A DNA stretch of 64,000 nucleotides from Sphingomonas sp. LY54. Its GTDB lineage: Bacteria > Pseudomonadota > Alphaproteobacteria > Sphingomonadales > Sphingomonadaceae. The notes under the pieces were generated by a model. It had not been told where the DNA came from. It worked only from the letters and a program-made list of their open reading frames with translations, and did no database searches. The translations under genes were made by a program, and so were the position numbers. Shown one piece after another: positions 1 to 14,692 of the stretch; positions within the stretch are counted from its first letter, which is position 1; every line of letters begins with the position of its first letter. The stretch spans positions 124,001-188,000 of the forward strand of contig NZ_CP141588.1 in NCBI RefSeq assembly GCF_035594035.1, written 5' to 3'.

Positions 1-2
1 TG

Positions 3-653
3 GTCGCCGTCATCGGTCTTGGCGGGACCGGAGCCTATCTCCTCGACCTGTTGGTCAAAACGCCAGTGCCCGAGATTCGGGGCTTCGACGGTGACGGGTT
101 TCATGTCCACAACGTATTTCGCTCACCCGGGCGGCTCGACGAAACCGAACTCGGCCTAAAGAAGGCAGACGTCTATCAGGAGCGTTACGAGAATTTCCGG
201 CACGGCCTACGGCTGGAGGCGACCTACATCGACGAAACCTCCGCCGACGCGCTCGCCGGTGTGACGTTCGCGTTCGTGTGCGTCGACAAAGGTTCAGCGC
301 GCGCTGCGATTTTCGAGCTGCTGATCGCAATCGGCATTCCGTTTATCGATGTCGGCATGGGTCTCAAGCGAAAGGACGGGCCACTCAACGGTATGCTGCG
401 GGTGACTCACTACTCGGCGGAGGACGCCCCACAGATGCGCGACCGCCAGCTCGCCGAACTGTCGGATGCCCCCGACAATCTCTATCGCGCCAACATCCAG
501 ATCGGCGAGCTCAACGCGCTCAATGCCTGCCTCGCCCTCATCAGGTACAAACAGCTGCGAGGCTTCTATCGCGAGGAAGAGGCGATCAAGCATCTGTTGT
601 TCGATATTGGCGACCTTCGCATCACCGGGGAGGTCAGCTTTGATGACGTATAG
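3..653 (+). CDS. ThiF/E1-like adenylyltransferase, 5' truncated by the window edge
   Basis: The reading frame is open from base 3, so the start lies before the window; 216 residues are visible. They begin with the ATP-binding glycine motif VAVIGLGGTGAYLLDLL of the ThiF/MoeB/E1 superfamily, whose members adenylate the C-terminus of a ubiquitin-like or sulfur-carrier protein. Later segments (FVCVDKGSARAAIFELL, PFIDVGMGL) fit the rest of the Rossmann-like fold. The stop overlaps the start of a DUF6527-type gene by 11 bases, so the two are translationally coupled. E1-like proteins beside DUF6527 are known from bacterial ubiquitin-like conjugation loci, so an E2, ubiquitin-like or JAB gene may lie upstream; this is inferred. 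The position inside a mobile island suits a defence role. Confidence 0.8.
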   Translation, partial: VAVIGLGGTGAYLLDLLVKTPVPEIRGFDGDGFHVHNVFRSPGRLDETELGLKKADVYQERYENFRHGLRLEATYIDETSADALAGVTFAFVCVDKGSARAAIFELLIAIGIPFIDVGMGLKRKDGPLNGMLRVTHYSAEDAPQMRDRQLAELSDAPDNLYRANIQIGELNALNACLALIRYKQLRGFYREEEAIKHLLFDIGDLRITGEVSFDDV

Positions 654-1047
654 GCTCGCGCGCGTTCGCACTATGCCGGCCCAGCTCGAACCGGGCGTCC
701 TCTATGTTTCAGAGGAGTATGAAACTGCCGCGCATCTGTGCGCATGCGGCTGCCGATCGAAGGTGCGAACGCCGTTGGGGCCGACCGAGTGGTCATTTTT
801 CGAGGCAGCCGAAGGTCCGACGCTAAACCCTTCGATCGGCAATTGGCAGCGGCCGTGCAAGTCACATTATTGGATCATAAACGGTCGCGTCGAATGGTCG
901 ACGCAGTGGTCTTCTGAGCAGATCGCCGCCGGCAGGGCGTGCGAGCAAAGGCGTCGAGAGAGACACTACGCCAATCTAATTCCGAGCGGACACCTGGCTC
1001 GGCTCTGGCGCTGGCTAAAAGGTTTGTGTGGAGACGCGGAAACCTGA
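643..1047 (+). CDS. DUF6527-type small metal-binding protein, partner of the E1-like gene
   Basis: This encodes 134 residues. The core reads LEPGVLYVSEEY, then HLCACGC (Cys33, Cys35, Cys37), PLGPTEW, GPTLNPSIGNW and PCKSHYW (Cys72, His75). The cysteine/histidine pattern suggests one bound zinc. I recognise it as the DUF6527 family, often found next to ThiF/E1-like genes in bacterial ubiquitin-like operons; its biochemical role is not established. The chosen start at 643 overlaps the E1-like stop. A second ATG at 673 (MPAQLEPG) is also possible, because the conserved part begins just after it. The arginine-rich C-terminal tail (about residues 100 to 134) is not conserved-looking. Confidence 0.78.
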   Translation: MTYRLARVRTMPAQLEPGVLYVSEEYETAAHLCACGCRSKVRTPLGPTEWSFFEAAEGPTLNPSIGNWQRPCKSHYWIINGRVEWSTQWSSEQIAAGRACEQRRRERHYANLIPSGHLARLWRWLKGLCGDAET

Positions 1048-1093
1048 TCACCTATGCCAGGCGGGTGCGGAGCAAGTGTCAGGAGGGCAGGCG

Positions 1094-1459
1094 ATGGAAA
1101 CGCACAATTTTGAGCGGTTGAGGGCGCACATCCTGCCGCTGTCCGAATCCACGACATTCGACATCGCCCGCCAGGAGTGGGACCTGATCGGCGTCGAGAT
1201 CAGCGAGGAATTCGACAACTGCCCGTGCGGCCAGGAGATCGAGGAGCATTGCTACATCCGCAACAGGCTCAACGGCAATGCGACCTTTGTCGGTAGCGCC
1301 TGCATCAACCGGTTCATCCAGATCGACACCGGGATTTTATTCGAAGGCCTGAAGCGCATCGCCAAAGACGTTTCGGCGAACGCGAACAACGACCTGATCG
1401 AGCATGCTTCTCGAATGGGGTATCTCTTCGGGGAGGAGGAATACCGGTTCCTGAAGTAG
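1094..1459 (+). CDS. small Cys/His protein, C-terminally truncated by an amber stop
   Basis: A strong ribosome site (AGGAGG, about 1080-1085) precedes the ATG at 1094, so the longer frame opening at 1028 is not needed. The 121-residue product has a putative metal site CPCGQEIEEHC (Cys43, Cys45, His52, Cys53) and a later VGSACI (Cys70). Function is unknown to me; context suggests island cargo. After the TAG at 1457-1459 the same frame continues with protein-like sequence, meets a second TAG at 1490-1492, and ends at a TGA at 1562-1564. That tail includes lysine/arginine-rich stretches such as RKQKINRRILSKMIVQRR, which looks like a genuine but interrupted C-terminus. The gene is therefore probably decaying. 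Confidence 0.6.
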   Translation: METHNFERLRAHILPLSESTTFDIARQEWDLIGVEISEEFDNCPCGQEIEEHCYIRNRLNGNATFVGSACINRFIQIDTGILFEGLKRIAKDVSANANNDLIEHASRMGYLFGEEEYRFLK

Positions 1460-1564
1460 ACGGCGCTCAAGCGGAACCTCTCGCCCGCCTAGGTGGCTCG
1501 GAAGCAGAAGATCAACCGGCGCATCTTGAGCAAGATGATCGTCCAGCGCCGCGCCGCGACGTGA
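1457..1564 (+). pseudogene. interrupted C-terminal tail of the preceding small Cys/His gene
   Basis: These codons continue in frame from the gene ending at 1459, with TAG at 1457-1459 and TAG at 1490-1492 and no frameshift. The translated tail (ALKRNLSPA, then KQKINRRILSKMIVQRR) is far more protein-like than chance. Two point nonsense mutations are the simplest explanation. Read-through or amber recoding is possible but nothing else in the window supports it. Confidence 0.45.
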
Positions 1565-1690
1565 TCAATTCTGGACGTCAGCTACCGGAACGGGCGATCC
1601 GTATGCTGCCTGTCCGCTTACGGCCAGGAAATAGTCGAGGCAATTGCACCGAGTCTGGCTCTTGGCTTGGTATGCAGTTAGCATTGCAGG

Positions 1691-2335
1691 ATGCTGACAA
1701 TTGCCGCCATAATTTTTGCCCTATCAAGCACACCACACGTGCTGAACAAAGCCTTTGGCGTATCGCTTGGTGAGCCAGCGGGAAACATGAGCGAACGAGG
1801 ATTTCGTCGCAATAAATATGGAAACGGCGATAGCTGGGTCAGTACCGACGATTCCTTCTTCGATCGCGTGACGGTGGATGTCTCGAAGTACCAGTCGCTC
1901 GTAGAATCGATCGCAGCGTCCAAGGAATACAAAGAGGGGGGCCGTAGCGCTCGACAGCAAGCGTGTGAGGCAGATCTGGCTACACTTGGAGCCACCATTC
2001 GCTCCAAGTATCCGTCGTTGCGCAAGCCAGCTTGGCTCAAGAGCGAGGATGGCGTTGGTGGGATGCTCGGTTACTACCGCAAGTGGGTGCTCGAAGAGCC
2101 CGTTTCGCTTGAGGCAGATCCATCGCCTGCGCGGATTGTTAGCCTCACATGCTTTGGTCCGAGCGTCTTGGCGAGGGGTGAGGAGCGGGACCGACGCACC
2201 TTCTTATTCGTTATATATCGCATCAGCGAGCTTGAGCGCGCGCCTATCGAAGCTGACTTTCGCGCGAGGGAGCGACAGCGTGAGCGCGACCGCGCACGTG
2301 CACGTGCACTTGGCGTGGACCCAGAAAAACTCTGA
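1691..2335 (+). CDS. hypothetical protein with N-terminal hydrophobic segment
   Basis: This encodes 214 residues that I do not recognise. The N-terminus (MLTIAAIIFALSSTPH) is hydrophobic and resembles a signal peptide or membrane anchor. The middle is mixed polar sequence with tryptophans and two cysteines. The C-terminus (about residues 185 to 210) is very arginine-rich with alternating Arg/Glu, probably a charged helix. GC content is lower than in the chromosomal part, as in the rest of the island. It stands alone between the decayed Cys/His gene and the convergent methyltransferase gene. No clear ribosome site was seen. The 270 bases that follow hold no supported feature. Confidence 0.5.
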   Translation: MLTIAAIIFALSSTPHVLNKAFGVSLGEPAGNMSERGFRRNKYGNGDSWVSTDDSFFDRVTVDVSKYQSLVESIAASKEYKEGGRSARQQACEADLATLGATIRSKYPSLRKPAWLKSEDGVGGMLGYYRKWVLEEPVSLEADPSPARIVSLTCFGPSVLARGEERDRRTFLFVIYRISELERAPIEADFRARERQRERDRARARALGVDPEKL

Positions 2336-2605
2336 CGCGGAATTCCATGACTTAGAAGGCGCAAAACAGCGTCTGGTATGGATGTCTGCAACGCGGCAAT
2401 GCGTGACGCCCAGCGGCGAACCTGTCCATCCCGGAAGCCGCCGTTTATCATGGCGCCTACCTTATGGGGCGGCGGTTAGCCGCTCTTGCCCTCGAAGGCC
2501 CACTCCGGAAGAAAACCTACAGCGGGCGAGAATCTCGCGAGCTCAGCCATTTCCTCCTTGGGTCGTTCGTCACTTGTCACCGCTGGGCCTTCTCATGGAA
2601 CCTTC

Positions 2606-5600
2606 TCACGCGGCGTAACGCCCGTCGCTGAGCCGCCGTGCCATTCCTAGGCCGGCGAGCGCGTCAAGCACGGGGCGGACGCTGACGGCCCGCTTGCCTT
2701 TGAAGCTGCGGGCGATGTCCTGGACCGCGAGTGGGGCTGGCGCAGCGGCGAGGATAGATTGCACAGCGCCGACCTGCTCCGGCAAATTTTTCGGCCACGG
2801 TATAACGTTGCTGACCGGCACGACTGGCCCCTCGCCGAGGTCGAGCGTCGCCGCAACCGGCGCCGTATGACCCGAGACTTGGAATTCGGGACGCAGGTAG
2901 CGGATCAGCCCGCGCGCCTCCTCAGCCTCTCTTTCTTTGTTGAGCGCGACCAGACGGGCGAGGATCGTCTCCTCGTCAAGTGTGCCGGCGCGATGCTCCT
3001 CGCCCCAGCCGTAGGCTTCGGCGACACCCTCATCGATCGCATTGTGATGCTGGCGTATCAGGGTGACGAGGCCCCGATCGTGGATGTCGCGTTCTATGGG
3101 CGAGAGCACCCGGCCCGCACGAAGGGCTTCGAGCACGTTGTAAAGCTTCGTAAGGGTCAGGTCGGGCTGCTTAGAGAGAACGTTCTTCCGCAGATCTTCC
3201 AGTGCCTCGGCTGTCGATGCAATCTGATCTCTCCTGCCTTCATCGACGTCGCCTGGAAACGGGAAGGCATCAAAGCATCGCGACTTATTATATCTCGGGT
3301 GATTGCCGATGCCTCGCCTCGTGCCTGCGCGGATAGACCATATGGAGTGGTACTTTGAGGACAGTACGCCGAGGATGTAAGGGTCAGATGAGGCGATCAT
3401 CACGACGCTACTATCGCCACCGGTGCCTGAGGGCAGGAACTTAAATATTCTATGCTTAGATGTGATCGGTGTTGCGATGAGTCGCGGTAGACCCTGCAGG
3501 GCGGCCCTGAATGGCCCTAAGGCTTCACCGAAAATCCACCAGTTCCTTCGCCGGATCGGACGAGGATTGACGTCGCGTTCAGGCTTAACGTTTATTAGAA
3601 GGTGCTGGTAAGCGGCTTTGAAACGGCTGGCCAGTTCAGTTTCAGTAAGGCCGTAGAAGTCGAGCATCCACAGACGCCTAGGTGCCTGAGTCATGTCGAT
3701 CCCATTCACGTACGGCCTGACAAAACGGTTGAGCTCAGGATCGGCGGCGATCAGCGCGGCGGCCTCCACGGAAGAGATAGAAAAGCCACGACCATTGAAC
3801 TGAAAGCCGACCTGCCCGAGCCCTCGATTGGAGCGTAGCAGTGCTGCCCCTCTTACGTTCGGTCCGATAGTAAGACTTGGAAGTATGTATCCCTTCCTTC
3901 TGATGAATTCAGCGGAGTCGCTAGCGTGCTGCTCTCCGCGAACGAACGATAAGACGTCAAGCTGCCCGTCGTGAACTCCAGCTCGAGCACACGTCATAGA
4001 GATTCGAACAGATGCGCCGTCCATGTTGTCCACCCAAGGATGGTCAGGAACAGCGTATATGACTGAGAGGGCATCGTCGCTGTAAAGATGGTCCGATAAG
4101 ACAGCCGAATTGAACGGTGAGGTTATCTGCGAAGTCGTGATAAGTCCAAACTGCGTCAGATTACCGGTTGTAAGTAGGTTGGCGCTTACGTGCCACCAGT
4201 ACATGACGAGATCACAGTTTTCGCTTATTGCGTATGACGCTCTCAAAGCATCTACGTATCGCTCGCCTAAGCGAACGCGCATTTCTCTCTTGCCGATGAA
4301 GGGTGGGTTGCCAATAATGAAGTCCGCCTTAGGCCAAGCCGCCGCACGCGGGTTGACGTATCGGTAAACCTCCACCCGCGCCGTCTCATCTGGCACCTGT
4401 TTTCCGGTTACGGGGTGTGGCTTCATCGTCTCGCCGTCCCATCGAGTGACCGGCGCACCTTGCTCGTCGCGCTCAAGCACGCGCTCGTCCCATTCGATCA
4501 GCGCATCCCGATTTTCGATTGTTCGAATGTCACGCAGGATTGGCTCAGGTGGGGCGCGGCCCTTGCCGTTCACGCGGAAATGCCACTGCAGGTAGCCGAT
4601 CCACAGCACCAGTTGCGCGATCGCAGCGGCGCGCGGATTGATCTCAATGCCGAGAAAGTTCTCCGGCGTGATCGTGTGACCGGTCAGCTCGGCGAGATAC
4701 TGGTGGTCGCCGAGGTCGACTAGCAAGTCGAGCACCTCGCCTTCAAGCTCCTTCATCCGCGCCATCGCGACATAGAGGAAGTTCCCGGTGCCGCAGGCGG
4801 GATCGAGCACGCGCGTTTGCGCGAGCTTGGTGTGGAATGTCTCCACTGTCCGCCGTGCCTCGTCGACCTTGCCTTGGTCGATCAGTTCGGACGCTGCGAC
4901 GCGCACGCCGGCCCAATCGGTGCGCAGCGGCTCGAGGATCGTCGGCCCAACCAGGCGCTCGACGTAGGCGCGCGGCGTATAGTGGGCGCCCAGCTTCGCG
5001 CGCTCCTTCGGGTTAAGCGCCCGCTCCAGCAACGTGCCGAAGATGGCGGGCTCGACCTCGGTCCATCGATGCTCGGCTGCCTGGACTAGGACATCCAATT
5101 CCTCGGCGTGCAGCGGTATGGCGGTACGGTCCTTGAACAGATAGCCGTTGAAGCGCTTGAGCGGCACGCCAAGCGCAGGCGAAAAGTCGCCGGCATCCAT
5201 CGCCGCCCACAAAGCGCTGAGCTGGTGCTCGAGATGCTCCGGCGCCGCGCATTGTTTCTTGAGCAAGTTGGTGAAGCTCTTCGCCGGTATCAGATTGCTA
5301 TCCTCGGCGAACATCGTGAACAGCAGGCGCATCAAAAAGTTGCCGGTCCGTTCAGCTGAATGGCCACGCCGCTCCAGCCGCCGAGCGACGGTGGCGAGCA
5401 GGTCCGCAATATCGCGCGTCACCCGCGTTGAGCGGACGCTCGGATCGAGGCTCCCCGGCGCCTCCCAGATCGCCGTCAGCCTTTCGCGGACCTCGGGGTC
5501 GCGCAAGTCGTCGAGCATGATTCGGTAGCGTGAGCGGTCGGGAAACTGCGCGTAGGCCTTTCCCGTTCCTGAAAAGTCGGCATAGACCTCGATGCAGTAG

Positions 5601-6079
5601 CCGATGTCCACGACGAGCACGAACGGCGGCCATCCGTGGTCCGCCGGTAGCGCCTTTGCATAACGCTCGGCTTGACCCTTCGCCTGCACCATCGCCTTAG
5701 CCCAGGCCGGCGTCCCACGGCGGGCGGTACCGCGCTTCAGGCGCGCCGATGCGGATTGGCCGAATAGGTCGAAGTCGTCCTCGCCCCGCGCAGCGGCCGC
5801 GCGGTCGGCTTCGCTTCCCTGCTTCGCCTCGACGATGAAGGCGCCCTTCTTGTAGCAGTCGATCCTGCCGAAGCTGACGGTGCCGTCGCCATTGTCTTGG
5901 AATACCCGACGTTCGAACACATAATCGTTCTGCGCATCGTCAGTGCGGCTGCCGTGCGGCGCCTCGACACCGATCAGCCCGCACAGGCCGTTGATGAAGC
6001 TCTGCGTATTCGCGAGCTCCGATCCACCCGTATCGCGCCATTGCGCAATGAAGCGTTCCACGTCGGAAGTGTCCCCCAT
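2606..6079 (-). CDS. MmeI-like (type IIL/IIG) fused restriction endonuclease-adenine methyltransferase
   Basis: At 1157 residues this is a single-chain restriction-modification enzyme. The N-terminus (about residues 70 to 85) carries a PD-(D/E)xK-like nuclease signature, RIDCYKKGAFIVEAKQ. Next is a gamma-class N6-adenine methyltransferase domain: the SAM motif VLDPACGTGNFLY near residue 426 and catalytic NPPF near residue 590. The target-recognition region follows (about 620 to 930), then a C-terminal helical domain. Such enzymes both cut DNA and methylate it through one recognition domain. Bases about 3280 to 4350, covering the recognition region, are clearly lower in GC than either flank, suggesting domain exchange. 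A small HTH gene at 6690 and repeats at 6092-6180 may control it. Exact recognition sequence cannot be read from the protein. Confidence 0.85.
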   Translation of the reverse strand: MGDTSDVERFIAQWRDTGGSELANTQSFINGLCGLIGVEAPHGSRTDDAQNDYVFERRVFQDNGDGTVSFGRIDCYKKGAFIVEAKQGSEADRAAAARGEDDFDLFGQSASARLKRGTARRGTPAWAKAMVQAKGQAERYAKALPADHGWPPFVLVVDIGYCIEVYADFSGTGKAYAQFPDRSRYRIMLDDLRDPEVRERLTAIWEAPGSLDPSVRSTRVTRDIADLLATVARRLERRGHSAERTGNFLMRLLFTMFAEDSNLIPAKSFTNLLKKQCAAPEHLEHQLSALWAAMDAGDFSPALGVPLKRFNGYLFKDRTAIPLHAEELDVLVQAAEHRWTEVEPAIFGTLLERALNPKERAKLGAHYTPRAYVERLVGPTILEPLRTDWAGVRVAASELIDQGKVDEARRTVETFHTKLAQTRVLDPACGTGNFLYVAMARMKELEGEVLDLLVDLGDHQYLAELTGHTITPENFLGIEINPRAAAIAQLVLWIGYLQWHFRVNGKGRAPPEPILRDIRTIENRDALIEWDERVLERDEQGAPVTRWDGETMKPHPVTGKQVPDETARVEVYRYVNPRAAAWPKADFIIGNPPFIGKREMRVRLGERYVDALRASYAISENCDLVMYWWHVSANLLTTGNLTQFGLITTSQITSPFNSAVLSDHLYSDDALSVIYAVPDHPWVDNMDGASVRISMTCARAGVHDGQLDVLSFVRGEQHASDSAEFIRRKGYILPSLTIGPNVRGAALLRSNRGLGQVGFQFNGRGFSISSVEAAALIAADPELNRFVRPYVNGIDMTQAPRRLWMLDFYGLTETELASRFKAAYQHLLINVKPERDVNPRPIRRRNWWIFGEALGPFRAALQGLPRLIATPITSKHRIFKFLPSGTGGDSSVVMIASSDPYILGVLSSKYHSIWSIRAGTRRGIGNHPRYNKSRCFDAFPFPGDVDEGRRDQIASTAEALEDLRKNVLSKQPDLTLTKLYNVLEALRAGRVLSPIERDIHDRGLVTLIRQHHNAIDEGVAEAYGWGEEHRAGTLDEETILARLVALNKEREAEEARGLIRYLRPEFQVSGHTAPVAATLDLGEGPVVPVSNVIPWPKNLPEQVGAVQSILAAAPAPLAVQDIARSFKGKRAVSVRPVLDALAGLGMARRLSDGRYAA

Positions 6080-6091
6080 GCTCTTACATTA

Positions 6092-6180
6092 AGGCGCCGG
6101 GAGCGGGTCGCAAGGCCCGTAAATTGGCCTTCGCCGGAGCAGGTCTCCTGCACGATGCCGGGAGGCGCCGGGAGCGGGTC
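6092..6180. repeat. 18-bp direct repeat pair flanking an inverted repeat, upstream of the MmeI-like gene
   Basis: AGGCGCCGGGAGCGGGTC occurs at 6092-6109 and again, identical, at 6163-6180 (71-base period). Between them lies the inverted repeat AAGGCC (6112-6117) and GGCCTT (6126-6131). The block begins 12 bases before the methyltransferase start codon (6079, minus strand), where promoter or operator elements would lie. It may be the binding site of the small HTH protein encoded at 6690; this is inference from position. Confidence 0.55.
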
Positions 6181-6270
6181 AGCCTGGCTAGTTCGATCGG
6201 TCTGGTATCGTGCGGCCCTATTCAGGTCGTAGTGGGTTCCCTTCTCGAACAGATGCGGTGGATATTACTG

Positions 6271-6573
6271 TCAGTCACGCGGCGCGGCTCGTGCCGCTAA
6301 TTGTCCATTCGCCTCGCTTGGGTCAGTCGATGAATACTCTCCCTGCTTGCGAAGAAAGGTAACCGATGGTCGTTGAGGATTGACCGATATGATCTCCACG
6401 GGTGACCCGTCCGGCGTACAGATCTCGAGTTCACCGGACTTCCCCAGCGGCGTGAAATAAAGGTTTATACCCCGCACCCGCTCCACGCCGCATGTGCTCA
6501 GCTGACCGCAGACGTGCCGTAGCTCCGCCTCGAGCTGCTCGAAGGTGACTTCTCCCCGCATGGTTACTCGCAT
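6271..6573 (-). CDS. hypothetical 100-aa protein
   Basis: The product (MRVTMRGEVTFEQLEAEL at the start, then RVRGINLYFTPLGKSGELEI) has the alternating pattern of a small alpha/beta protein. I vaguely recognise similar short proteins from sphingomonad islands but cannot name a family or function. The start could be 6573 or the in-frame ATG four codons later. It lies divergent to the HTH gene at 6690 and upstream of the methyltransferase gene on the same strand, separated by about 190 bases that contain the direct repeats. Confidence 0.45.
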   Translation of the reverse strand: MRVTMRGEVTFEQLEAELRHVCGQLSTCGVERVRGINLYFTPLGKSGELEICTPDGSPVEIISVNPQRPSVTFLRKQGEYSSTDPSEANGQLAARAAPRD

Positions 6574-6689
6574 GGCGTCTCGTTCGAAGATGCAGACCCG
6601 GTCCGCTCCGGGGCCGTCCCCAAAATGGGGACACTCGTAGGACTCCTATACTGACTTAACCTCGGGATCAATCTGGGGTGGCGTGACGT

Positions 6690-6947
6690 ATGGGACGGGG
6701 TTGGATCGATTCCGCCGCTTACCGAGCTGCTGTCGGAGTCATCACAATCGAACGAACATCGCTGGAGGTGTCGCAGCGGGAGCTCGCACGACGCCTCGGC
6801 AAACCACCCTCGTTTGTGAACAAGATCGAGCTGCTGGAACGCCGCCTTGATATCGTCGAGCTCATAGCAGTCGCGCGAGCGCTTGGCGTGAAGCCCGAGG
6901 CGCTCTTCGGAAAAATTCTCGAGGCTATCCCGAGCGACGATCACTGA
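6690..6947 (+). CDS. small XRE-type helix-turn-helix regulator
   Basis: The 85-residue protein is almost entirely an HTH_3/XRE domain. The helices are read from SQRELARRLGKPPSFVNKIE (about residues 28 to 47), followed by LIAVARALGVKPEALF. Its size matches controller (C) proteins of restriction-modification systems, which delay expression of the nuclease activity; here it would act on the fused MmeI-like gene encoded divergently. Other XRE regulators look similar, so the link rests on proximity. The start ATG at 6690 is followed by about 20 extra residues before the HTH; an internal start is possible. Confidence 0.72.
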   Translation: MGRGWIDSAAYRAAVGVITIERTSLEVSQRELARRLGKPPSFVNKIELLERRLDIVELIAVARALGVKPEALFGKILEAIPSDDH

Positions 6948-7107
6948 TCGGGAGCTGCTAGGGAGAACCGGCTGCCAGTGCGGGTACCATGCGCGAGTGC
7001 GCCAGCCTTATGAAGTGGGTCTTCATTCTCTTAGGGAGAGGCAATCAAATTCTTCTAAAACCACACCCGTTCTTGCTATGTTCCGCGAATCAAGCTAGTG
7101 CGTCCGG

Positions 7108-8184
7108 ATGGCTTGTATGAAGGGAGCACGCGGTCGGGGCGCCACAGAAAATCATCTAAGTTCGCGTTTTGATGATACGATTAGGATATCCGACGGTGAT
7201 TGGCTTGATGGGCAAGAGGCCGTGGATGGCGCTCAATCACAAACTAGGACCGAAGTCACGCCGGAGGTAGCAAAGTCGGCGATTACCTTCAATCGATCCC
7301 CAGACATACCATTTGACCGATCAATAAATGCATTCCGAGGGTGCGAGCACGGGTGTATATACTGCTTTGCGCGTCCAACACATGCCTACCACAACTTGTC
7401 GCCCGGGCTAGACTTCGAGACTAAACTCTTCGTGAAGGAAAACGTAGCGGAGGTTCTTCGTGATGAGCTGGCGAGGCCAAGTTATCATGTCTCACCAATC
7501 GCGTTGGGCACAAATACTGATCCATACCAACCGATCGAGCGGAGGTACGAGTTAACTCGCCGGATATTAGAGGTTCTTTCTGATCATGATCATCCGGTAA
7601 CGATCACTACTAAGTCGGCGGCGGTTACGCGAGATCTTGACATATTAGGGCCCATGGCAGCGAAGAATCTCGTGACGGTCGTCCTCTCAATTACAACCTT
7701 GGACGCGGCGCTCGCGCGAAAGTTAGAGCCGAGAGCATCTGCACCAGCAAAGCGCATCGAAGCGATCGGCAAGCTGGCCGATAGCGGGGTTCAAACTCAT
7801 GTCGGGGTCTCCCCGGTGATCCCCGGCATTACCGATCATGAGATTGAGCGGATTATAGAAGCGGCGGCAGCCGCTGGGGCTACTGGAGCGTTCTCTCTGA
7901 TGGTCCGACTCCCTCATGAGGTCAGCCCTCTGTTCCGAGCCTGGCTTGCAAAGCATTATCCGGAGCGGCTGCAGAAGGTGATGCATCTCATAAATGATAG
8001 TCGGGGTGGTCGCGACAACGATCCAAACTTCTTTTCCAGAATGTCGCCAACTGGCCCTTATGCCGAACTCCTTCGGAGCCGCTTTCTGCTGGCTTGTAAG
8101 CGATCCGGGCTGGTACACGACCGAATGAGGCTCAGAACAGACCTGTTTCAGAGGCCATCTGCCGCCCAACTTCGGTTGTTGTGA
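7108..8184 (+). CDS. PA0069-family radical SAM protein, island-borne complete copy
   Basis: The 358-residue product has the radical SAM cluster motif RGCEHGCIYCFARP (about residues 80 to 93), with three cysteines in CxxxCxxC spacing to bind a [4Fe-4S] cluster and S-adenosylmethionine. It is of the SPL/PA0069-type branch, whose exact reaction is not established. N-terminal sequence GRGATENH and DGDWLDGQEA matches the first 80 codons of the chromosomal copy broken at 14409-14652. The gene is visibly AT-richer than the chromosome, so it came with the island rather than by local duplication. It probably supplies the function lost when the island inserted. Starts at 7108 or 7117 are both possible. 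Confidence 0.9.
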   Translation: MACMKGARGRGATENHLSSRFDDTIRISDGDWLDGQEAVDGAQSQTRTEVTPEVAKSAITFNRSPDIPFDRSINAFRGCEHGCIYCFARPTHAYHNLSPGLDFETKLFVKENVAEVLRDELARPSYHVSPIALGTNTDPYQPIERRYELTRRILEVLSDHDHPVTITTKSAAVTRDLDILGPMAAKNLVTVVLSITTLDAALARKLEPRASAPAKRIEAIGKLADSGVQTHVGVSPVIPGITDHEIERIIEAAAAAGATGAFSLMVRLPHEVSPLFRAWLAKHYPERLQKVMHLINDSRGGRDNDPNFFSRMSPTGPYAELLRSRFLLACKRSGLVHDRMRLRTDLFQRPSAAQLRLL

Positions 8185-8225
8185 GGTGAGCGAGGCCGAG
8201 AGGAATGGTTTTGGTAGTGAACAAT

Positions 8226-8702
8226 CTAGGAGGGATCGCGGAAGGGGACTACGTTCTCGCGCCTCTCCGCCGCCGACTTCGCTAGAAGTCGGTCATGCGC
8301 TTTCTTCCACCTCCGAGCCTCCTGCTCGGCACTGCTTCGGTGGTGATAATGCGCAAGTGCTTCCGCTTGGGCATTGTGCTTCAACACCCTCTCGCTTGCC
8401 AGGTCGGACCTTAGTTTTTCAATGAGTTCCGAGGAGGTGCGGGGACTGGAAGGACGCTCTTCCATGGCTTGCAGAATGAGCTGGCGCGTAGCCGGGTACC
8501 TGCACTCTTTGAGAGCAATCAACGTCCGGGACCTTTTCGCTTCCTGGGCGACCGTTGTGAAGTTGACCTTCAGATTCCCCGTCTTCTGGAGCGCTTTCAA
8601 TTCTTTATGCGTGGGATCCCCGCTCATGAGCCGCGCAAGGGCTGCTCGGAAGTCTTTTTCGATCGCGTCCAGCGGTGGAGCGTCGGTCTTTTTCCTCCTC
8701 AT
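8226..8702 (-). CDS. small basic accessory protein of the recombinase module (TnpC/DUF6262-like)
   Basis: This 158-residue, strongly basic, helical protein is the last gene of a four-gene minus-strand operon. Its start overlaps the stop of the 729-aa recombinase by four bases (ATGA). The segment VNFTTVAQEAKRSRTLIAL resembles a small helix-turn-helix, and the second half (about residues 85 to 145) is rich in Arg/Lys/Glu and probably a coiled coil. Tn554-type elements also place a small DNA-binding TnpC after two large recombinases, and TnpC influences insertion orientation and frequency. Family assignment is by size, position and general look, not by a diagnostic motif. Confidence 0.6.
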   Translation of the reverse strand: MRRKKTDAPPLDAIEKDFRAALARLMSGDPTHKELKALQKTGNLKVNFTTVAQEAKRSRTLIALKECRYPATRQLILQAMEERPSSPRTSSELIEKLRSDLASERVLKHNAQAEALAHYHHRSSAEQEARRWKKAHDRLLAKSAAERRENVVPFRDPS

Positions 8703-10888
8703 GATGCGCCACCGCCGAGGCGGTCTTCTACTATCTGGTCGAGATGAGCAACATCAACGCCAAGGTGGCTCAGGAGCACCTTCGCCTGATTTGCGCGCCC
8801 AAGGATCACCCGGAACCTAGTCTCCTCGCCATCAAGCTGCGCTTGCCGATACGAGAAGAGGTTGCGAATATATCGATCTTCCCAGAAGTGCTGGTGCCGA
8901 CCATCGAGCAGGAAGCACTTGCAGCCTGCACATACAGAAGGCTCACGCGTCGCGTAATTGGGCTGCTTGTTTAGCCAGGACGTGGTGCCGGCTACGTCAT
9001 GACAGCGCATCGCCAAAGGATTTAGGGGCAGGCACTTTCCGTGCGGAGCGAACCACAATCGTAAGTCATATTTGGAAACGAACTTTGCGGTCTCGCGCCA
9101 CGCCCGAGAAGTGCTTTGACCATCGATCCGCTCCCGGAGCTCGAGGATGTGCTTTTCCAGTCGCTCGCCCATCTGCCCGCTGAGAAGCGAGCGACCTGTT
9201 GCCAGTTCGAACATTGTGAGCACAGTCTGCTGCGTCCGCACCGCCTGAAGCGGTGCAACCTGATGGCGGTTTTTGCCGATGTACCCGCCAGAGGTGATCT
9301 CTTGGCTTAAATGATGGAATTGCATCTGGAGAGCGGGCAAGAGGCGAGGATCCACTCCATAGGCAAAACTAGCCCACATCTTGCGGAACTGATGGGATCG
9401 GATCTTGCGGCCAGTCGTTTCGCGCCATTCGACGAGATCGTTGTCCTTGATGCGGTGCGCTGACTCGTCCGGTAACTGGCTAAGATCGACCCAGTTTTCG
9501 ATAAAATCTCGCATGTCGTTCAATAATCTCGATCCCAGAATCCTTCCCACGCCCTGAGCGGACTTGGGCAGGCCCAACGGGCTTGTGATCGAGACGAAGA
9601 GCCGGTCGGACTGCGCGAGCACCCGGTATGGCTCGAGTAGGCGATTCAGTAGCAGAAGAGCGTGGACGGCGGGCGGAAGGTCGTTCGCACCTTTGATCCG
9701 CATTCCAATCACCCAATCCTCGTAAATGGGTGTATCCTCCCCCTTCGCAAGGAGGGTACGGCACAGAAATACCTCGTCCAATCCGGAAGACCCCGTCTCG
9801 ATTCTCACGCACACCGGGAGTCCTGAGATGGGATCCACACCCGCCGGAAGCCCGCAAAGCTCCGACATGCGTAAGCCACCTGCCGCCATAACGGTTATGG
9901 AGCACGCTGCTTGGAGCGCCACGACTAAGCGCCTGATAGCTAGGCCCGTGTGCGCTGGATCAACTTCGGTCGGCGCTATTGGTGGGTGCCATGCTGCTTC
10001 GTGACCATCCAAAACCGAAAACTGGAAGGCTCGAGCGGCTTTCCGTTGGCGGGTCTCTTGCGACGATTTTGCCATACCTGGACCGGCATGATGACTACCC
10101 GGGGGGCGATTGTACAACGCCTCAGCGACATCCCTGAGCCGTAAAATGTCTTCGGCCGGGGTGCCCAGAAACCAGGCCGCCTTGTTTAGGATCGGTATCG
10201 CAACCTCATCGGGCAACGGCTGCACCCATCCCTTCGCTTTAGTGGCGATGGTCCTGGCGATGCCGAGGGCTTTTCTGCCGTCCCATGGCTTCTGAGGAAG
10301 TGGTAAAATGCCCGAAGCTTGCAGTGCGTGGCGTTGCTGGAAGATGAGAAGCGGTATGCGAACACGGTTCCACGCCATGCTCTCGCCGATTTCATCATCG
10401 TCTTCGTCCTCTTGGTCCTCGTCTCCATCATCAGCGGCCTCAGCTAGAAGCCCCGGCAGGTCGTCTAGATACTGCTGTAGAGCCTCTGGCCCGAGATCGG
10501 AGGGCATTTCAGCCGCGTTTGCTACCATCCATCGAATGAGCGTCCGCAAACCGACGGATACCGAGCCGATAGTACCGGGAGCTAGCGGCGATGCCTTATC
10601 GCCCGGTGCCACCATCAAAGACCATACGAAGCGTTTGGCCCAATCCAAAATTTTGGCGAATGGGGCGCTCGTCAGAAGGGCGAGCGAAACTCCATCGCTG
10701 CTCCCAACTTCGAACGCCCAGTTTATGGTGCTTGAACTCGTGCCCGCTCCCGCAGTCGGGTTGTCTAGAACCCAAAAAGAATCCCCCCATTTGCTGACGG
10801 ATGAGATTCGCTCCTCGCCGAGACCGCGATCGCGGCGGAGGTGTAGCGGACTCGTCGAAGTAGCGCTGAAGATGTGCGACGTCTTCAT
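8699..10888 (-). CDS. large tyrosine recombinase-like protein of the integration module
   Basis: This is a 729-residue protein. The C-terminal half carries recognisable tyrosine recombinase boxes: GGLRMSELCGL (candidate catalytic Arg, about residue 340), HQFRKMW (the HxxR box, about 500) and FHHLSQEITSGGYIG (His and candidate nucleophilic Tyr, about 523 to 536). All key residues seem present although the motifs are divergent. A very acidic stretch sits near residues 148 to 168 (Asp/Glu-rich). A Cys-containing tail (VCAGCKCFLLDGRHQHFW) may bind metal. It follows the 624-aa gene with one base between and overlaps the small accessory gene, so the module is one transcript. Confidence 0.72.
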   Translation of the reverse strand: MKTSHIFSATSTSPLHLRRDRGLGEERISSVSKWGDSFWVLDNPTAGAGTSSSTINWAFEVGSSDGVSLALLTSAPFAKILDWAKRFVWSLMVAPGDKASPLAPGTIGSVSVGLRTLIRWMVANAAEMPSDLGPEALQQYLDDLPGLLAEAADDGDEDQEDEDDDEIGESMAWNRVRIPLLIFQQRHALQASGILPLPQKPWDGRKALGIARTIATKAKGWVQPLPDEVAIPILNKAAWFLGTPAEDILRLRDVAEALYNRPPGSHHAGPGMAKSSQETRQRKAARAFQFSVLDGHEAAWHPPIAPTEVDPAHTGLAIRRLVVALQAACSITVMAAGGLRMSELCGLPAGVDPISGLPVCVRIETGSSGLDEVFLCRTLLAKGEDTPIYEDWVIGMRIKGANDLPPAVHALLLLNRLLEPYRVLAQSDRLFVSITSPLGLPKSAQGVGRILGSRLLNDMRDFIENWVDLSQLPDESAHRIKDNDLVEWRETTGRKIRSHQFRKMWASFAYGVDPRLLPALQMQFHHLSQEITSGGYIGKNRHQVAPLQAVRTQQTVLTMFELATGRSLLSGQMGERLEKHILELRERIDGQSTSRAWRETAKFVSKYDLRLWFAPHGKCLPLNPLAMRCHDVAGTTSWLNKQPNYATREPSVCAGCKCFLLDGRHQHFWEDRYIRNLFSYRQAQLDGEETRFRVILGRANQAKVLLSHLGVDVAHLDQIVEDRLGGGAS

Positions 10889-10889
10889 C

Positions 10890-12764
10890 TCAGCCGACCG
10901 GAGGGAGCACGATTTTGAATGTTACGGCCTGCTCAAGAACCCCTTCCGAAACATTCTTCAAAAGCGACTCCAGATCGTCGGCAATAGGCTTCCATTTGGT
11001 CGACCAAGCCTCCGGGGAGACTCTGCCTCTCGATTCAAAGATTGCTGTTCGGAGACCGAGATATTGTGCCACGTTTGAAACTTGGCTCACCTCCGCAGCC
11101 GCCAATGGACAGGCTGGGCACTCACCGTAGGCGGTGCAGAGGCGGTCCGCTTTTTGATTTGCGCGGGGACTGTCAAAGGGATCAAGGCACAGAAATCCTG
11201 GCGTAGCGGCGCCAACGTCGTAAGTGAGGGGCTTATGCCTCGGGTCGATTACTCCTCGCGTGGTAAGCCACCGGTCCCGGACGAGTAATATAAGCCCAAT
11301 CCTCTCCCGATAACGTTGCTTCGTTCCGTCGCTGGTATAGTGCCTCCATAGAGTCTCGGGATTTTTTTGTTTCCCGAGTTCTTGAGCTGCCAATAAGTCT
11401 CCCGTTTGAACTTGGACCTCGTCCAGCAAAGTAAATCTGATTTGAGAAAGATTGAACTTGTCGATAGCGTGCGTTTTGATGAAGCTTCGCAGAGCGCATT
11501 TCCAGACTGCATCGCACGAGGGTCCGCCGCTTTTGTGCTCAAACGTTTTCGCAACCGGCGAGGTTGCTCTGGCCTTCGTGACAAACAGCAACAACTTGTC
11601 TTTGCTGGTAATGCGATTTACCGCTGGTCGAATTCTTGCTGTGATAGATCGAAGTTCGTCCAGTAAGATGGCGATGTTGAAAGCAGCTGAAGGACTAGCA
11701 TCCAGTAGAACGACAGGGTCTTCGGCAGCCCGAGCCTTTGGGCCGGATATCCTGATCGTGGGAAGGCCAAATCGCTCGCCCTCATAGATGTCGCCCCACT
11801 CGAGAGACATTGCGGTGTCGGCGTTGAAAGCGGTTGCCGTCGCAATCAACAATACAAACGGAACTAGATCCCTCGATGTTGGGTATAGGAACCCTACGAG
11901 ATCGCGGACGTCATAGTCAGAGGTGAGAGCTCGGAATAATGGCGGGTCGATGTGCTGCAAGCAGCTTATATCATCAACAAACCTTGGGAAGTGTGTTGCT
12001 AGTGCAGCTAAGCACACGGACCGGTCTTGATAATCAGCGCGCCCCTCCTGGATAGCTTTGTTGCCCTTGCGGAGCAGACGGCGGCCTTTTTGCCATCTGT
12101 CAATGGTGCCTAAGATTTCCGCCTCTGCAGCAAGTATTATCTTTTGCATATGAGCGCTCGACAACCGAGGCACTGGAGTGCCCGTTTGGCTACGGCCCGG
12201 CCATGGATTCAGTGGCAGCGCTTCTTCCGCGCGTCCCGCCGCCGACCCCCACGTGCCATCGCTCTTCAGGTGCTGAAGGACCGCACGGACCACTCCCAGA
12301 CGGTTAGCTCTCGTATTTTTGCTAAGTGGTTTGCCGGTTTTCCCCGGCCGGTTCAGAAAGGCCACGAAACCGGTAAAAAATGTCTCGTCCAATTCTTCAA
12401 GCGAGACGAGCGCGTTCCCCGACTCCATCAGGAATGTGTGCAGTCCGGTGCGCAATTCCATTATGCGCTGGTACCGGCTGAGCGCCGCCACGGTAGCGCA
12501 GTATCGAACCAGCCCCTCCGACATCGGCACTGCTAAGTTCGGCAGTGACAGTAGGAATGAAACAACCAGAGTCTGCTCCTCTCTGTCCGGCGTGGGGAAC
12601 ACCAGCTGAAGGAGAGGTCGGCTAGTCTCCGGATCGATCTTACGTTCAAGCCGTGTGAGGCTTGCACCCGCGTCGAGCACCACGACGTTATCGGTGGCGC
12701 GAGCGACCTTCTTGGCTTGCGCGATCACGGACTGCGCGACGGAGCTACGCTTGCTACTCACCAA
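10890..12764 (-). CDS. TnpB-like tyrosine recombinase homologue with degenerate active site
   Basis: The protein has 624 residues, close to Tn554 TnpB in length and position. The usual Arg box reads TAFNADTAMSLEW (about residue 315), with no arginine at the expected place. The second box is QIRFTLLDEV (about 444) and the final box LGKQKNPETLWRHYT (about 461 to 474), where LGH has become LGK. A tyrosine remains. It may therefore act as a structural or DNA-binding partner rather than an independent catalyst. A C-terminal Cys cluster (CTAYGECPACPL) could bind metal. Its start overlaps the end of the TnpA-like gene by 11 bases. Confidence 0.7.
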   Translation of the reverse strand: MVSSKRSSVAQSVIAQAKKVARATDNVVVLDAGASLTRLERKIDPETSRPLLQLVFPTPDREEQTLVVSFLLSLPNLAVPMSEGLVRYCATVAALSRYQRIMELRTGLHTFLMESGNALVSLEELDETFFTGFVAFLNRPGKTGKPLSKNTRANRLGVVRAVLQHLKSDGTWGSAAGRAEEALPLNPWPGRSQTGTPVPRLSSAHMQKIILAAEAEILGTIDRWQKGRRLLRKGNKAIQEGRADYQDRSVCLAALATHFPRFVDDISCLQHIDPPLFRALTSDYDVRDLVGFLYPTSRDLVPFVLLIATATAFNADTAMSLEWGDIYEGERFGLPTIRISGPKARAAEDPVVLLDASPSAAFNIAILLDELRSITARIRPAVNRITSKDKLLLFVTKARATSPVAKTFEHKSGGPSCDAVWKCALRSFIKTHAIDKFNLSQIRFTLLDEVQVQTGDLLAAQELGKQKNPETLWRHYTSDGTKQRYRERIGLILLVRDRWLTTRGVIDPRHKPLTYDVGAATPGFLCLDPFDSPRANQKADRLCTAYGECPACPLAAAEVSQVSNVAQYLGLRTAIFESRGRVSPEAWSTKWKPIADDLESLLKNVSEGVLEQAVTFKIVLPPVG

Positions 12765-14049
12765 ATATCAGCCTGCGGGTATCGACGATTTTCTCCTGGC
12801 CGTCGAAAATCTCGACAAAGCTCAAATATGTGTTGATAGTGGTCGACAGCCGTGCGTGGCCGAGCTGTGCTTGGACCTTCTTCCAAGGCTCAGGATTTCC
12901 CGCCATTTTTTCTGACCAGTAAGTTAGCACGGCGTAAGTATGTCTTAGGTCGTGGACGCAATGACTCGATTTGAACTCATGGCGAACGTCGCCCGTTTCC
13001 GGGTCGACCCTTTCGACGCTTTTCAGCAAACCTGCTTTCCGGCAGATTTCTTCGACAATCTGTTCAACTCGGCGCTCTGAAATTGCGCTTCCCGGTGCAT
13101 TACTATCCTGGCTGGCAAGAAAGAGCCTCGGGGTGGGGCGTTGTCCTGGGTTTCCGGCAGCTACGCATTCTTTACGTTCGCCTTCGATGTAGGCGGTGGC
13201 GTCTTGGATCAGCCAGCTCGGCACTCCAACGACGCGCTCGACGCCGCCTTTGCCAAGGATCGTGAGCGGGTATTCCAGCAAAGGTGCTTGGGGATCCGGG
13301 CAGATCGACAAGATTTGAAAGATCGTGAGCCCGAGAGCTTCACTAAGGCGGAGGCCGACGGCCCACATAAAGTCAGCGAGTAGTCTGTTCCTTGAGGGCC
13401 GCTCGTCTCCATCTCGATTGGCCGCTTGCGGACCGGCTGCTTTGAGGAACGCTTGGAGTTCTCGGGTGAGAAAAGGTCTGACCCCCCGTCGGTTGAGGCG
13501 AACCTTGGGCCCAATGCCCTTGACGGTAGTTCGCACCGAGCCCGTGGTGCTAACGGTAACCGATGATCCGTCTCGGAATTCGTCCAGAGTAATGCTGCCT
13601 TCCAGCAAATCTCCAGAGTATTTTTTGGAATTATGCTGATAGAAGTGGAGGATGACCGCCACTCGGTTTCGGATCGTGATCGGTGCGTAGGCTGCCCCGG
13701 TTTTTGGAGAAATCGCCACCTGGTAAGCGTCCCGATACTGGATCAAGTCACTGCGCGACGCAGTCGTCCAATCCCGAATTCCGATCTGCGGCAAAAACTC
13801 GAACCAGCTCTGCAGAGCGTACGCAGCTGCCTCCCAGGTTTCCGGAGAGGGGCTTTCGCCGTTTTCTACGTACCTTTCGCGAATGAAACTGGTGGGCGCC
13901 TGTAGCAGGGTCATCGAGGGAGTGAAGAACAGCCCCGGCTCCAATGCCCTGCAGCCATCCGTGGACAGCTTCGTCTTGAACACCTGTATCCGCTCCGAGG
14001 GGCGGTAGAGGTCTATCGGCTGTTCACGCATGCCTCGCATGCGCACCAA
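12754..14049 (-). CDS. TnpA-like tyrosine recombinase/integrase, first gene of the integration module
   Basis: The product is 431 residues with a full tyrosine recombinase catalytic set: AVGLRLSEAL (Arg, about residue 236), VHDLRHTYA (His and Arg, about 368) and LGHARLSTTINTY (His, and Tyr at about 408). The N-terminal half (about 40 to 200) has the expected SAM-like core-binding region. It starts about 360 bases from the island-chromosome junction and is transcribed away from it, as tnpA is in Tn554-type elements. It is the likely strand-cleaving enzyme for insertion into the radical SAM gene. No excisionase is evident. Confidence 0.88.
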   Translation of the reverse strand: MVRMRGMREQPIDLYRPSERIQVFKTKLSTDGCRALEPGLFFTPSMTLLQAPTSFIRERYVENGESPSPETWEAAAYALQSWFEFLPQIGIRDWTTASRSDLIQYRDAYQVAISPKTGAAYAPITIRNRVAVILHFYQHNSKKYSGDLLEGSITLDEFRDGSSVTVSTTGSVRTTVKGIGPKVRLNRRGVRPFLTRELQAFLKAAGPQAANRDGDERPSRNRLLADFMWAVGLRLSEALGLTIFQILSICPDPQAPLLEYPLTILGKGGVERVVGVPSWLIQDATAYIEGERKECVAAGNPGQRPTPRLFLASQDSNAPGSAISERRVEQIVEEICRKAGLLKSVERVDPETGDVRHEFKSSHCVHDLRHTYAVLTYWSEKMAGNPEPWKKVQAQLGHARLSTTINTYLSFVEIFDGQEKIVDTRRLIFGE

Positions 14050-14186
14050 TCCTATGAACAGAAATGCAGAAATCTATTCGTCATAATGCGTACCGGAGCA
14101 CTATTTTCGCCTGCGTAACTCCCGGGGCCATAAAGCAGCTAAAGCTAGGGCTTCTCGCGGAGACCCTCCCCCCGGACCCCCCTCCC

Positions 14187-14302
14187 GAGCGGTTGTCGCC
14201 CGTGGGCCCACAGGCACCTCCCACGGCCGTCGCCGCCTGCGCCCTTGAATGCGCGCGTCGCCGGCCGTGGGGCCCTCCTGTGGACTACGGGGACAACCGC
14301 TC
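14187..14302. repeat. 116-bp nested inverted repeat at the island end
   Basis: Outer arms GAGCGGTTGTC (14187-14197) and GACAACCGCTC (14292-14302) are perfect complements. Middle arms CCACAG (14208-14213) and CTGTGG (14278-14283) and inner arms CCCACGGCCG (14220-14229) and CGGCCGTGGG (14262-14271) are also exact, with partly matching bases between. The whole could fold into one long cruciform or RNA hairpin. It lies between the first recombinase gene and the island junction, so it may be a recombinase site, a barrier to transcription entering from outside, or both. The remaining bases from 14050 to 14408 hold no supported gene. Confidence 0.75.
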
Positions 14303-14408
14303 ATTCAGGCGTCGTGAACACTGCAAACGCTACGAAGTGTACGGTGGCTCGAAAAAGGTTACAGCCGGATTTCCGCCAACCTCTTTCCCCCGCCGACGCT
14401 ACGGAGAA

Positions 14409-14421
14409 CATGCTCGCAGCC
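14409..14421 (-). other. island-chromosome junction (attachment-site half)
   Basis: On the minus strand the chromosomal gene reads GGCTGCGAGCATG, coding for GCEH plus one base of the next codon. Beyond 14409 the sequence no longer encodes the expected continuation (Gly-Cys-Ile-Tyr-Cys). Because of microhomology the exact crossover could be at any point in or just beside these 13 bases. The matching junction at the other end of the island lies before the window. Confidence 0.78.
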
Positions 14422-14652
14422 GCGATAGGGATTGATCGAGCGGTCGAAGCCGATGTCGGGCGAATGGTTGCGGGTGATGATCGTCTTGGGCTTCTCGACC
14501 GTCACGCTCGTCCGCAGCGGCGGCATGACGCCATCGAGCGCCTCGCGCGCATCGAGCCAGTCCCCGTCCGCCTCGCGCACGGCGAGCCCGAAGCGGGTCG
14601 GGACCTTGTTCTCGGGCGCGCCACGGCCGGCGCGGACATCGGGACGGGGCAT
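14409..14652 (-). pseudogene. chromosomal PA0069-family radical SAM gene, cut after codon 81 by the island
   Basis: The first 81 codons are intact, beginning MPRPDVRAGRGAPENK and ending DRSINPYRGCEH. The cluster motif should continue with GCIYC, but the sequence switches to island DNA. The leftover frame runs to a chance stop at 14359, giving a useless 97-residue peptide without the cluster cysteines. It lies 40 bases after the lytic transglycosylase gene on the same strand and was probably the third gene of that operon. The missing C-terminal part should be found beyond the far end of the island. Confidence 0.88.
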
Positions 14653-14692
14653 GCCAATGTTCTACGCCCAAGGCGAGAACAAAGCAAGAACG

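Follow-up and report, generated by a model that had tools for sequence, protein, structure and literature searches.

The general view is that mobile elements either stay clear of conserved coding sequence or restore a gene end. SXT inserts in prfC. In target-restoring islands, the att region supplies a gene end, and a hybrid gene is rebuilt in place. The Tn554 family possesses three genes, tnpABC, and inserts in radC; to our knowledge, no spare target gene is known for this family. Synthetic cleave-and-rescue gene drives are engineered elements: they break their target and provide a rescue copy whose sequence is recoded where the cut is made. Among natural elements, GInts carry a ginABCD operon, and all four genes are needed for excision and integration, according to passages of PMC5385486. 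The same passages describe a short AT-rich far end, flanking imperfect direct repeats of 10-17 nt and a GinC without the first catalytic arginine. The sites named there are gene ends, 5′ ends or intergenic positions, and the authors considered that the target is probably not fully inactivated. In a part of PMC10121019, GInts are called the Tn6571 family. Strand-biased circularizing integrative elements (SEs) are treated as a sequence group distinct from GInts, and the Tn554 family is also compared, in portions of PMC10214605. For target-restoring islands, a section of PMC12884075 describes that the function of the target is restored and the insertion cost is thereby lowered.

A split PA0069-type gene, its island and the gin module

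The window is the whole stretch of 64,000 nucleotides that we analysed (G000:C1:124001-188000), taken from a one-contig genome of 3.28 Mb. Its relevant features are as follows.

1..14409: portion of the 44,788-bp island inside the window
2606..6079, minus strand: cargo, MmeI-like type IIG restriction enzyme-methyltransferase, 1157 aa
7069..7083, plus strand: LexA-type box GTTCTTGCTATGTTC, 24 bp before the start codon of the spare
7108..8184, plus strand: intact spare encoding a PA0069-family radical SAM protein at full length (358 aa); it comes directly after ginD, in convergent orientation
8226..8702, minus strand: ginD-like small protein, 158 aa
8699..10888, minus strand: ginC-like protein, 729 aa; R340, K382, R502, H526 and Y536 are conserved
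10890..12764, minus strand: ginB-like protein, 624 aa
12754..14049, minus strand: ginA-like tyrosine recombinase, 431 aa
14360..14409, minus strand: island end adjoining ginA; the junction comes after GCGAGCAT in gene direction
14410..14652, minus strand: N-terminal half of the broken host PA0069-type radical SAM gene, 81 codons, native up to ...RGCEH
14677..14691, minus strand: LexA-type box GTTC-N7-GTTC upstream of the broken host gene

The initial annotation had stated that the host gene is intact for 81 codons and passes into island DNA after GCEH. Both the junction and the profile match agree with this: in the minus-strand gene starting at 14652, NCBIfam rSAM_PA0069 is covered at positions 2-69 of 348 only. 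The 97-aa ORF at 14359-14652 consists of 81 native and 16 island-encoded codons, which is a small correction. The far C-terminal half, for which that annotation had proposed a search, was found 44.8 kb away on the same contig, outside the window (G000:C1:92794-93621, minus strand; residues 82-358 of the spare), and internal stops are absent from it. Because this half is located there, the insert between the two halves measures 44,788 bp; its GC content is 0.60 versus 0.68 in about 3 kb of flanks. The break lies between codons 81 and 82, within the CX3CX2C iron-sulphur motif. In the tree, the native C half clusters with genes from genomes of the same genus (100/96). Therefore, the split gene is the inherited one. 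A PA0069-type gene was matched in 330 of 396 genomes of the order at E<=1e-10, and 66 gave no match. Two full-length copies were seen in none of the ten order genomes inspected: two with a weak single match, and eight with two matches, which are all such genomes besides the source genome.

The start of ginA is 360 bp from the junction. Thus, the gin operon is located at one end of the island, at the attachment site. Three recombinase-like proteins and one small protein are encoded in line (431, 624, 729 and 158 aa). Pfam integrase domains were detected in the 431-aa and 624-aa proteins only; the conserved residues of the ginC-like protein are also compatible with a tyrosine recombinase. The GinA catalytic residues R234 and K267 are conserved in 24 of 25 aligned rows, and H366, R369, H398 and Y408 in all 25. 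In GinB, R298, K343, R443 and Y476, which we read as probably catalytic, are present in 24/25 rows. The first catalytic arginine of GinC, R340, is present in 24/24 rows, within GGLRMSEL at 337. The far island end is AT-rich: its last 60 bp have a GC content of 0.45, against 0.60 for the island, and values of 0.28-0.45 were obtained for six others measured. Inspection of this island's ends by eye revealed imperfect inverted end motifs and no clear 10-nt direct repeat. Across ten island ends, a (T/C)GAACA motif was observed about 27-30 bp inside the far end in every case, and imperfect inverted end motifs were also seen. Classed by the published description of GInts, the predicted driver of the island is a four-gene, ginABCD-like (GInt) module. 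A four-gene recombinase module at the junction had been named as the likely driver at the outset; the module was confirmed, and related modules are located at the same codon elsewhere.

The island carries other cargo in addition to the type IIG enzyme. A DUF6791-ThiF protein is encoded at G000:C1:123460-124653 and an M78 peptidase at C1:121715-122596. A Cas9-like gene (1054 aa; G000:C1:102475-106484, L004:12475-16484) is accompanied by a repeat array of 11-12 units with a spacing of 65-67 bp; cas1 and cas2 were not recognised by eye among the ORFs listed near it.

The spare is 48 bp from ginD. It matches positions 1-347 of 348 of rSAM_PA0069 with 461.9 bits (cut-off 360) and is 59% identical to the native C half. 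Its GC3 is 0.54 versus a mean of 0.83 in 40 intact genes, and its sister in the tree is the gene of genome G343 (97/93), not the native gene. This position rules out local duplication of the host gene as the origin of the spare. The full profile match, GC3 and tree thus agree with the earlier statement that a complete 358-aa homologue, which is not a local duplicate, is present on the island. Recoding of the spare for immunity was also considered. Around the break site, the spare has synonymous differences from the native consensus at 6/9 codons. TGT is used at one or both cysteine codons in 7/7 copies (five on-island spares, the unlinked copy of G413 and the fragment of G623) versus 3/40 intact genes. 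The product probability of the codon difference at the break site, given each gene's own codon use, is 0.05. Divergence in the site window is roughly that of the remainder of the gene, so that nothing points to recoding for immunity, and we rejected this idea.

Islands at the same codon and the history of their spares

A pattern scan based on a GinA alignment was performed on 84,980 species genomes and gave 35 loci; it reaches only relatives that fit two peptide patterns. At 23 of the 35 loci, ginABCD is complete and in order. We followed 27 loci (L060-L086) and their 27 genomes and left out L087-L094, which contain ginA alone or nothing. A GinA search of the order found the source genome only among 396 (E<=1e-30). 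In the family of G402, GinA was found in 6/294 genomes, three of them new. The 31 gin genomes considered below are the 27 from the scan, these three and the source genome. A search of 37 plasmid records gave one close relative, on a Sphingobium plasmid, and no spare of its target-like stub was found in 41 kb. Several of the surveyed genomes are drafts or MAGs, and targets were read by eye from stubs and by family searches.

A radical SAM N-terminal fragment ending at residue 81-83 is located just upstream of ginA in 11 of the 31 gin genomes. The ten besides our own are Janthinobacterium (G398), Massilia (G402, G403 and G405), Cupriavidus (G407), an Acidobacteria MAG (G413), Dyella (G414), Oleiagrimonas (G417), a Burkholderiales MAG (G421) and G623 from the family of G402. 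The junctions agree closely. C halves of the broken gene were found in 10/11 genomes; in G413, the only match besides the copy is 44% identical and was taken for another protein. An intact full-length copy is present on the island in 5/11 (our own, G402, G403, G405 and G407). The spares of our own island, G402 and G403 are bracketed by both host gene halves on one contig. Those of G405 and G407 are on the island side of the C half, and their gin end is on another contig; their island membership therefore rests on the position beside the C half. About 0.4 kb separates the G402 spare from ginD. Distances to the far island end are 4.7 kb for the G403 and G405 spares and about 0.2 kb for the G407 spare. 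An intact copy of G413 is on an unlinked 5.2-kb contig, and G623 contains a fragment only (residues 78-184). In G398, G414, G417 and G421, neither a spare nor an intact gene was seen in the genome search; the gin matches in G414 were limited to ginA and part of ginB. Because such hosts without a spare exist, the spare cannot be required. The initial annotation had proposed to check whether each related island lies at this codon with an intact homologue, and had regarded related elements that lack a cargo copy and insert at other sites as counter-evidence. The common codon stands, with ten further islands; the intact copy holds for 5/11 only. The counter-evidence is partly present, since four islands have no copy, G623 has a fragment, the G413 copy is unlinked and other insertion sites exist.

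Further inserts were observed at this codon. In G121, a genome of the order, an N stub ends at the same codon and is followed by a gin-like left end; the contig ends there without gin genes, and this case was not counted. G132 (L053), G183 (L054), G328 (L055) and G334 (L056) contain inserts of about 0.5-1 kb at the same PA0069 codon, and the left ends of these inserts are partly alike (for example, CCCCGYAAC.GTTRTG). The G183 insert contains a 139-aa ORF, and ORFs in G328 and G334 were read by eye. An intact gene follows the insert in G132, G183 and G328. In G132, both the stub and the C-part resemble native sequence (81% and 84% to L020), unlike the N-part of the intact gene (69%). This arrangement is perhaps a second way of restoring the gene, via a new 5′ part.

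Among the other 20 gin genomes, seven have no PA0069 match and 13 have exactly one (E<=1e-5). Thus, a second copy is present in 0/13 of those having the gene. In 11/13, the contig with the single gene differs in length from the gin contig; in G581 the gene is on another contig, and in G712 it is 1.3 Mb away. Fisher's test for 5/11 versus 0/13 gives p = 0.011, with a small control group and with rows of one element (G396, G397 and G399; G403 and G405) that are not independent. These counts bear on the idea that the homologue is accidental cargo, one of the many chromosomal genes that GInts acquire. GInt cargo is described as diverse and mostly from related bacteria in a passage of PMC5385486, and 6/11 islands have no intact linked copy, as accidental cargo would predict. 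However, the spare is present in 5/11 islands at the PA0069 site versus 0/13 elsewhere, the PA0069 spares come from several sources, and the spare matches the target in three further genes. We therefore consider an accidental origin very improbable.

GTTC-N7-GTTC, which we take to be the alphaproteobacterial LexA consensus, was found upstream in 27 of the 29 best full-length order matches (L008-L036), as well as upstream of the broken gene and the spare in the window. The four other on-island spares possess CTGT-N8-ACAG, presumably the beta/gamma type of LexA box, 47-64 bp ahead of the point at which the first codon aligns. A LexA-type box is therefore upstream of all five on-island PA0069 spares (5/5), and the background is about 0.005 per 100 bp. 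The full box is present in 7/11 broken stubs and absent in G407, G413, G414 and G417. No LexA box precedes the unlinked G413 copy, or the recJ spare and the G411 B12 spare described below. In most of these hosts, the gene therefore resembles one under SOS control, and such control has been retained by, or is present in, the on-island spares.

The tree of spares comprises 61 rows (residues 86-344). The G402 spare and the G403/G405 pair are at different places in a clade of Massilia and relatives, and the G407 spare groups with Antarcticirhabdus, Microvirga and Roseicella (100/97); its protein thus groups with alphaproteobacteria and its box is of the beta/gamma type. The on-island spares thus have at least four origins. 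The G403/G405 pair clusters with the gene that is broken in the host of G403 itself (100/100), so a near relative of such a host was the source of this spare. Between G403 and G405, dS is 0.23 for the spares and 0.79 for the broken C halves, and over four genome pairs silent-site divergence is 3.5-8 times lower for the spares than for the host genes that were broken. Thus, spare and island travel together. The dN/dS values of the spares are low (0.06-0.23): 0.17 for G403 versus G405 and 0.06 for G402 versus G403, the latter at a dS of 2.8, which is near saturation. For our own spare versus G343, dS is saturated and gives no usable dN/dS. Because the broken C halves of G403 and G405 also have a dN/dS of 0.07, the low values of the spares are by themselves no clean proof that the copy works.

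These histories can be compared with capture as a by-product, in which an island picks up the target allele of an earlier host, keeps it for a while and then loses it, with no selection for rescue. The positions of spares near ginD or near the far end, the G623 fragment and the four islands without a spare fit such capture, and the grouping of the G403/G405 spares with the broken gene of G403's host is what it would give. On the other hand, capture at a split site would sooner yield halves than full genes with an upstream LexA box, which 5/5 spares have. Moreover, the G407 protein groups with alphaproteobacteria, yet its box is of the other type, and spares remain with the island over a dS of 0.1-0.2. 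Capture of this kind seems unlikely to us.

gin islands in other target genes

G410, G411 and G412 each have a gin island within a B12-binding radical SAM gene; the cut, at RGCPF|, is once more at the CX3CX2C motif. A second full-length copy of this gene is present in 3/3 genomes, and two of the copies are on the gin contig. The G412 spare is between the N stub and the C half on one contig. The G411 spare is about 1 kb after ginD, and the far half is not on the contig; the G410 spare is on a separate contig. In the three pairs, dS is 0.10-0.21 for the spares versus 0.78-0.85 for the broken stubs. The gene cut in G415 is recJ, and ginD is directly followed there by a full-length gene of the RecJ family (DHH, DHHA1 and RecJ_OB domains). 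This RecJ-like spare is 39-41% identical to the broken recJ, and its score of 348 bits is below the family cut-off of 397. A search up to the contig end, with the 39%-identical spare as a query, did not reveal the far half of recJ. The island of G416 interrupts an acyltransferase gene (best NCBIfam match, PRK06814) at AFNDN|LFKNAL. A homologue with 49% identity and a 657-codon open frame is inside this island of about 50.6 kb, beside the host N stub, and is bracketed by the N stub and the C part.

Because spares matching the target are present in the B12-binding radical SAM, recJ and acyltransferase islands, the idea of a self-restoring element is strengthened. That the island restores what it breaks had been proposed from the window alone; the same-codon islands and the spares for three other targets support it. 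The recurrence of this arrangement in islands breaking three other genes suggests that elements of this family have repeatedly adopted the strategy of bringing along a spare of their target.

Several gin islands gave a different picture. For the target of L060, L063 and L207, whose stub is PAPS-reductase-like by eye only and gave no match in family searches, a search that took in 41 kb of L207 detected no intact spare linked to the island. The same is true of L082, in which a deoxyinosine glycosylase gene is the target (21 kb searched), and of G409, in which the target is a DUF455 gene and a second DUF455 match is on another contig. Rescue by a spare is therefore not universal: 4/11 PA0069 islands are without a spare, and several other targets are without a linked intact one. 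In L082, two C-terminal target pieces that are 89% alike stand in tandem (L082:6936-7292 and 9233-9772), and two C-terminal pieces of the target gene are likewise in tandem at the right end of the G623 island. In these cases, the spare itself may have been hit by a later insertion. In G401 (L065), the gin module adjoins the C part of dnaE2, which encodes an error-prone polymerase. We did not accept this locus as another clean case, since the second G401 dnaE2 (contig C57) is truncated, with its start at profile position 661. Repair genes are represented several times among the gin targets (dnaE2, recJ and the DNA glycosylase gene).

Proposed rescue and comparison with known systems

The split, the common site, the module, the full-length spare with its LexA-type box and a spare history that is shared with the island and not with the host are direct observations. 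Alongside them, we consider it rather likely that this is a GInt-like island that is site-specific for the CX3CX2C codons of the PA0069 family and carries a complete, separately controlled homologue as a rescue. According to this proposal, the recombinases would insert the island site-specifically into these codons. Once the island is in place, the spare would be expressed, probably in response to DNA damage as for the native gene, and would provide the enzyme that was lost. This rescue would lower the insertion cost, and the recombinases could therefore use a conserved coding motif of many hosts as an attachment site. Because islands without a spare and genomes without the gene exist, rescue would be helpful, not needed.

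A real rescue might instead have been selected as an anchor: with the host gene broken, partial loss of the island costs the gene. The anatomy would be the same, and addiction modules are reported to be common in GInts in a passage of PMC5385486. However, precise excision would restore the host gene, and some hosts do without the gene; selection as an anchor is, in our view, highly unlikely.

Beyond the rescue of a PA0069-type gene proposed above, we lean slightly towards a wider statement, namely that a widespread group of ginABCD islands is self-compensating by design. Each lineage would pair motif-cutting recombinases with a mobile full-length spare of exactly the gene that they cut, and the spare and target specificity would coevolve. 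The conserved motifs cut would be the radical SAM CX3CX2C motif, RecJ and the FNDN of the acyltransferase. With a complete spare under regulation, an element could take conserved coding DNA that is widely shared as its address. This would explain gin islands mid-way in conserved genes across several bacterial classes and would give a rule by which the target of a gin island is predictable from its cargo. It would also mean that some horizontally moved repair and housekeeping homologues are rescue genes of mobile elements.

In open-licence PMC papers, with the supplementary target tables of PMC5385486 outside the scope, we found neither a gin island described in a PA0069 gene nor gin islands described as bearing spares of their target. 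Like GInts, the island has a four-gene module at one end, long variable cargo, an AT-rich other end and site-specific insertion. In contrast to GInts as described, GinC here keeps the first catalytic arginine. Two further features differ from the GInts described there: the gene is cut inside a catalytic motif, and a whole spare is carried. With SEs, which published description sets apart from GInts, the island shares a four-gene recombinase module and target specificity. With the Tn554 family, it shares several tyrosine recombinases plus a small protein and insertion into a coding gene; unlike that family, it has four genes and a PA0069 target. As in target-restoring islands, the insertion cost would be lowered by restoring the function of the target; here, however, a separate full-length homologue is located elsewhere on the island, and the host gene stays split. 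Break and rescue are also the principle of cleave-and-rescue drives, in contrast to which no recoding beyond general codon bias was found in the spare. If our proposal is true, self-compensating gin islands would be the natural counterpart of break-and-rescue gene drives.
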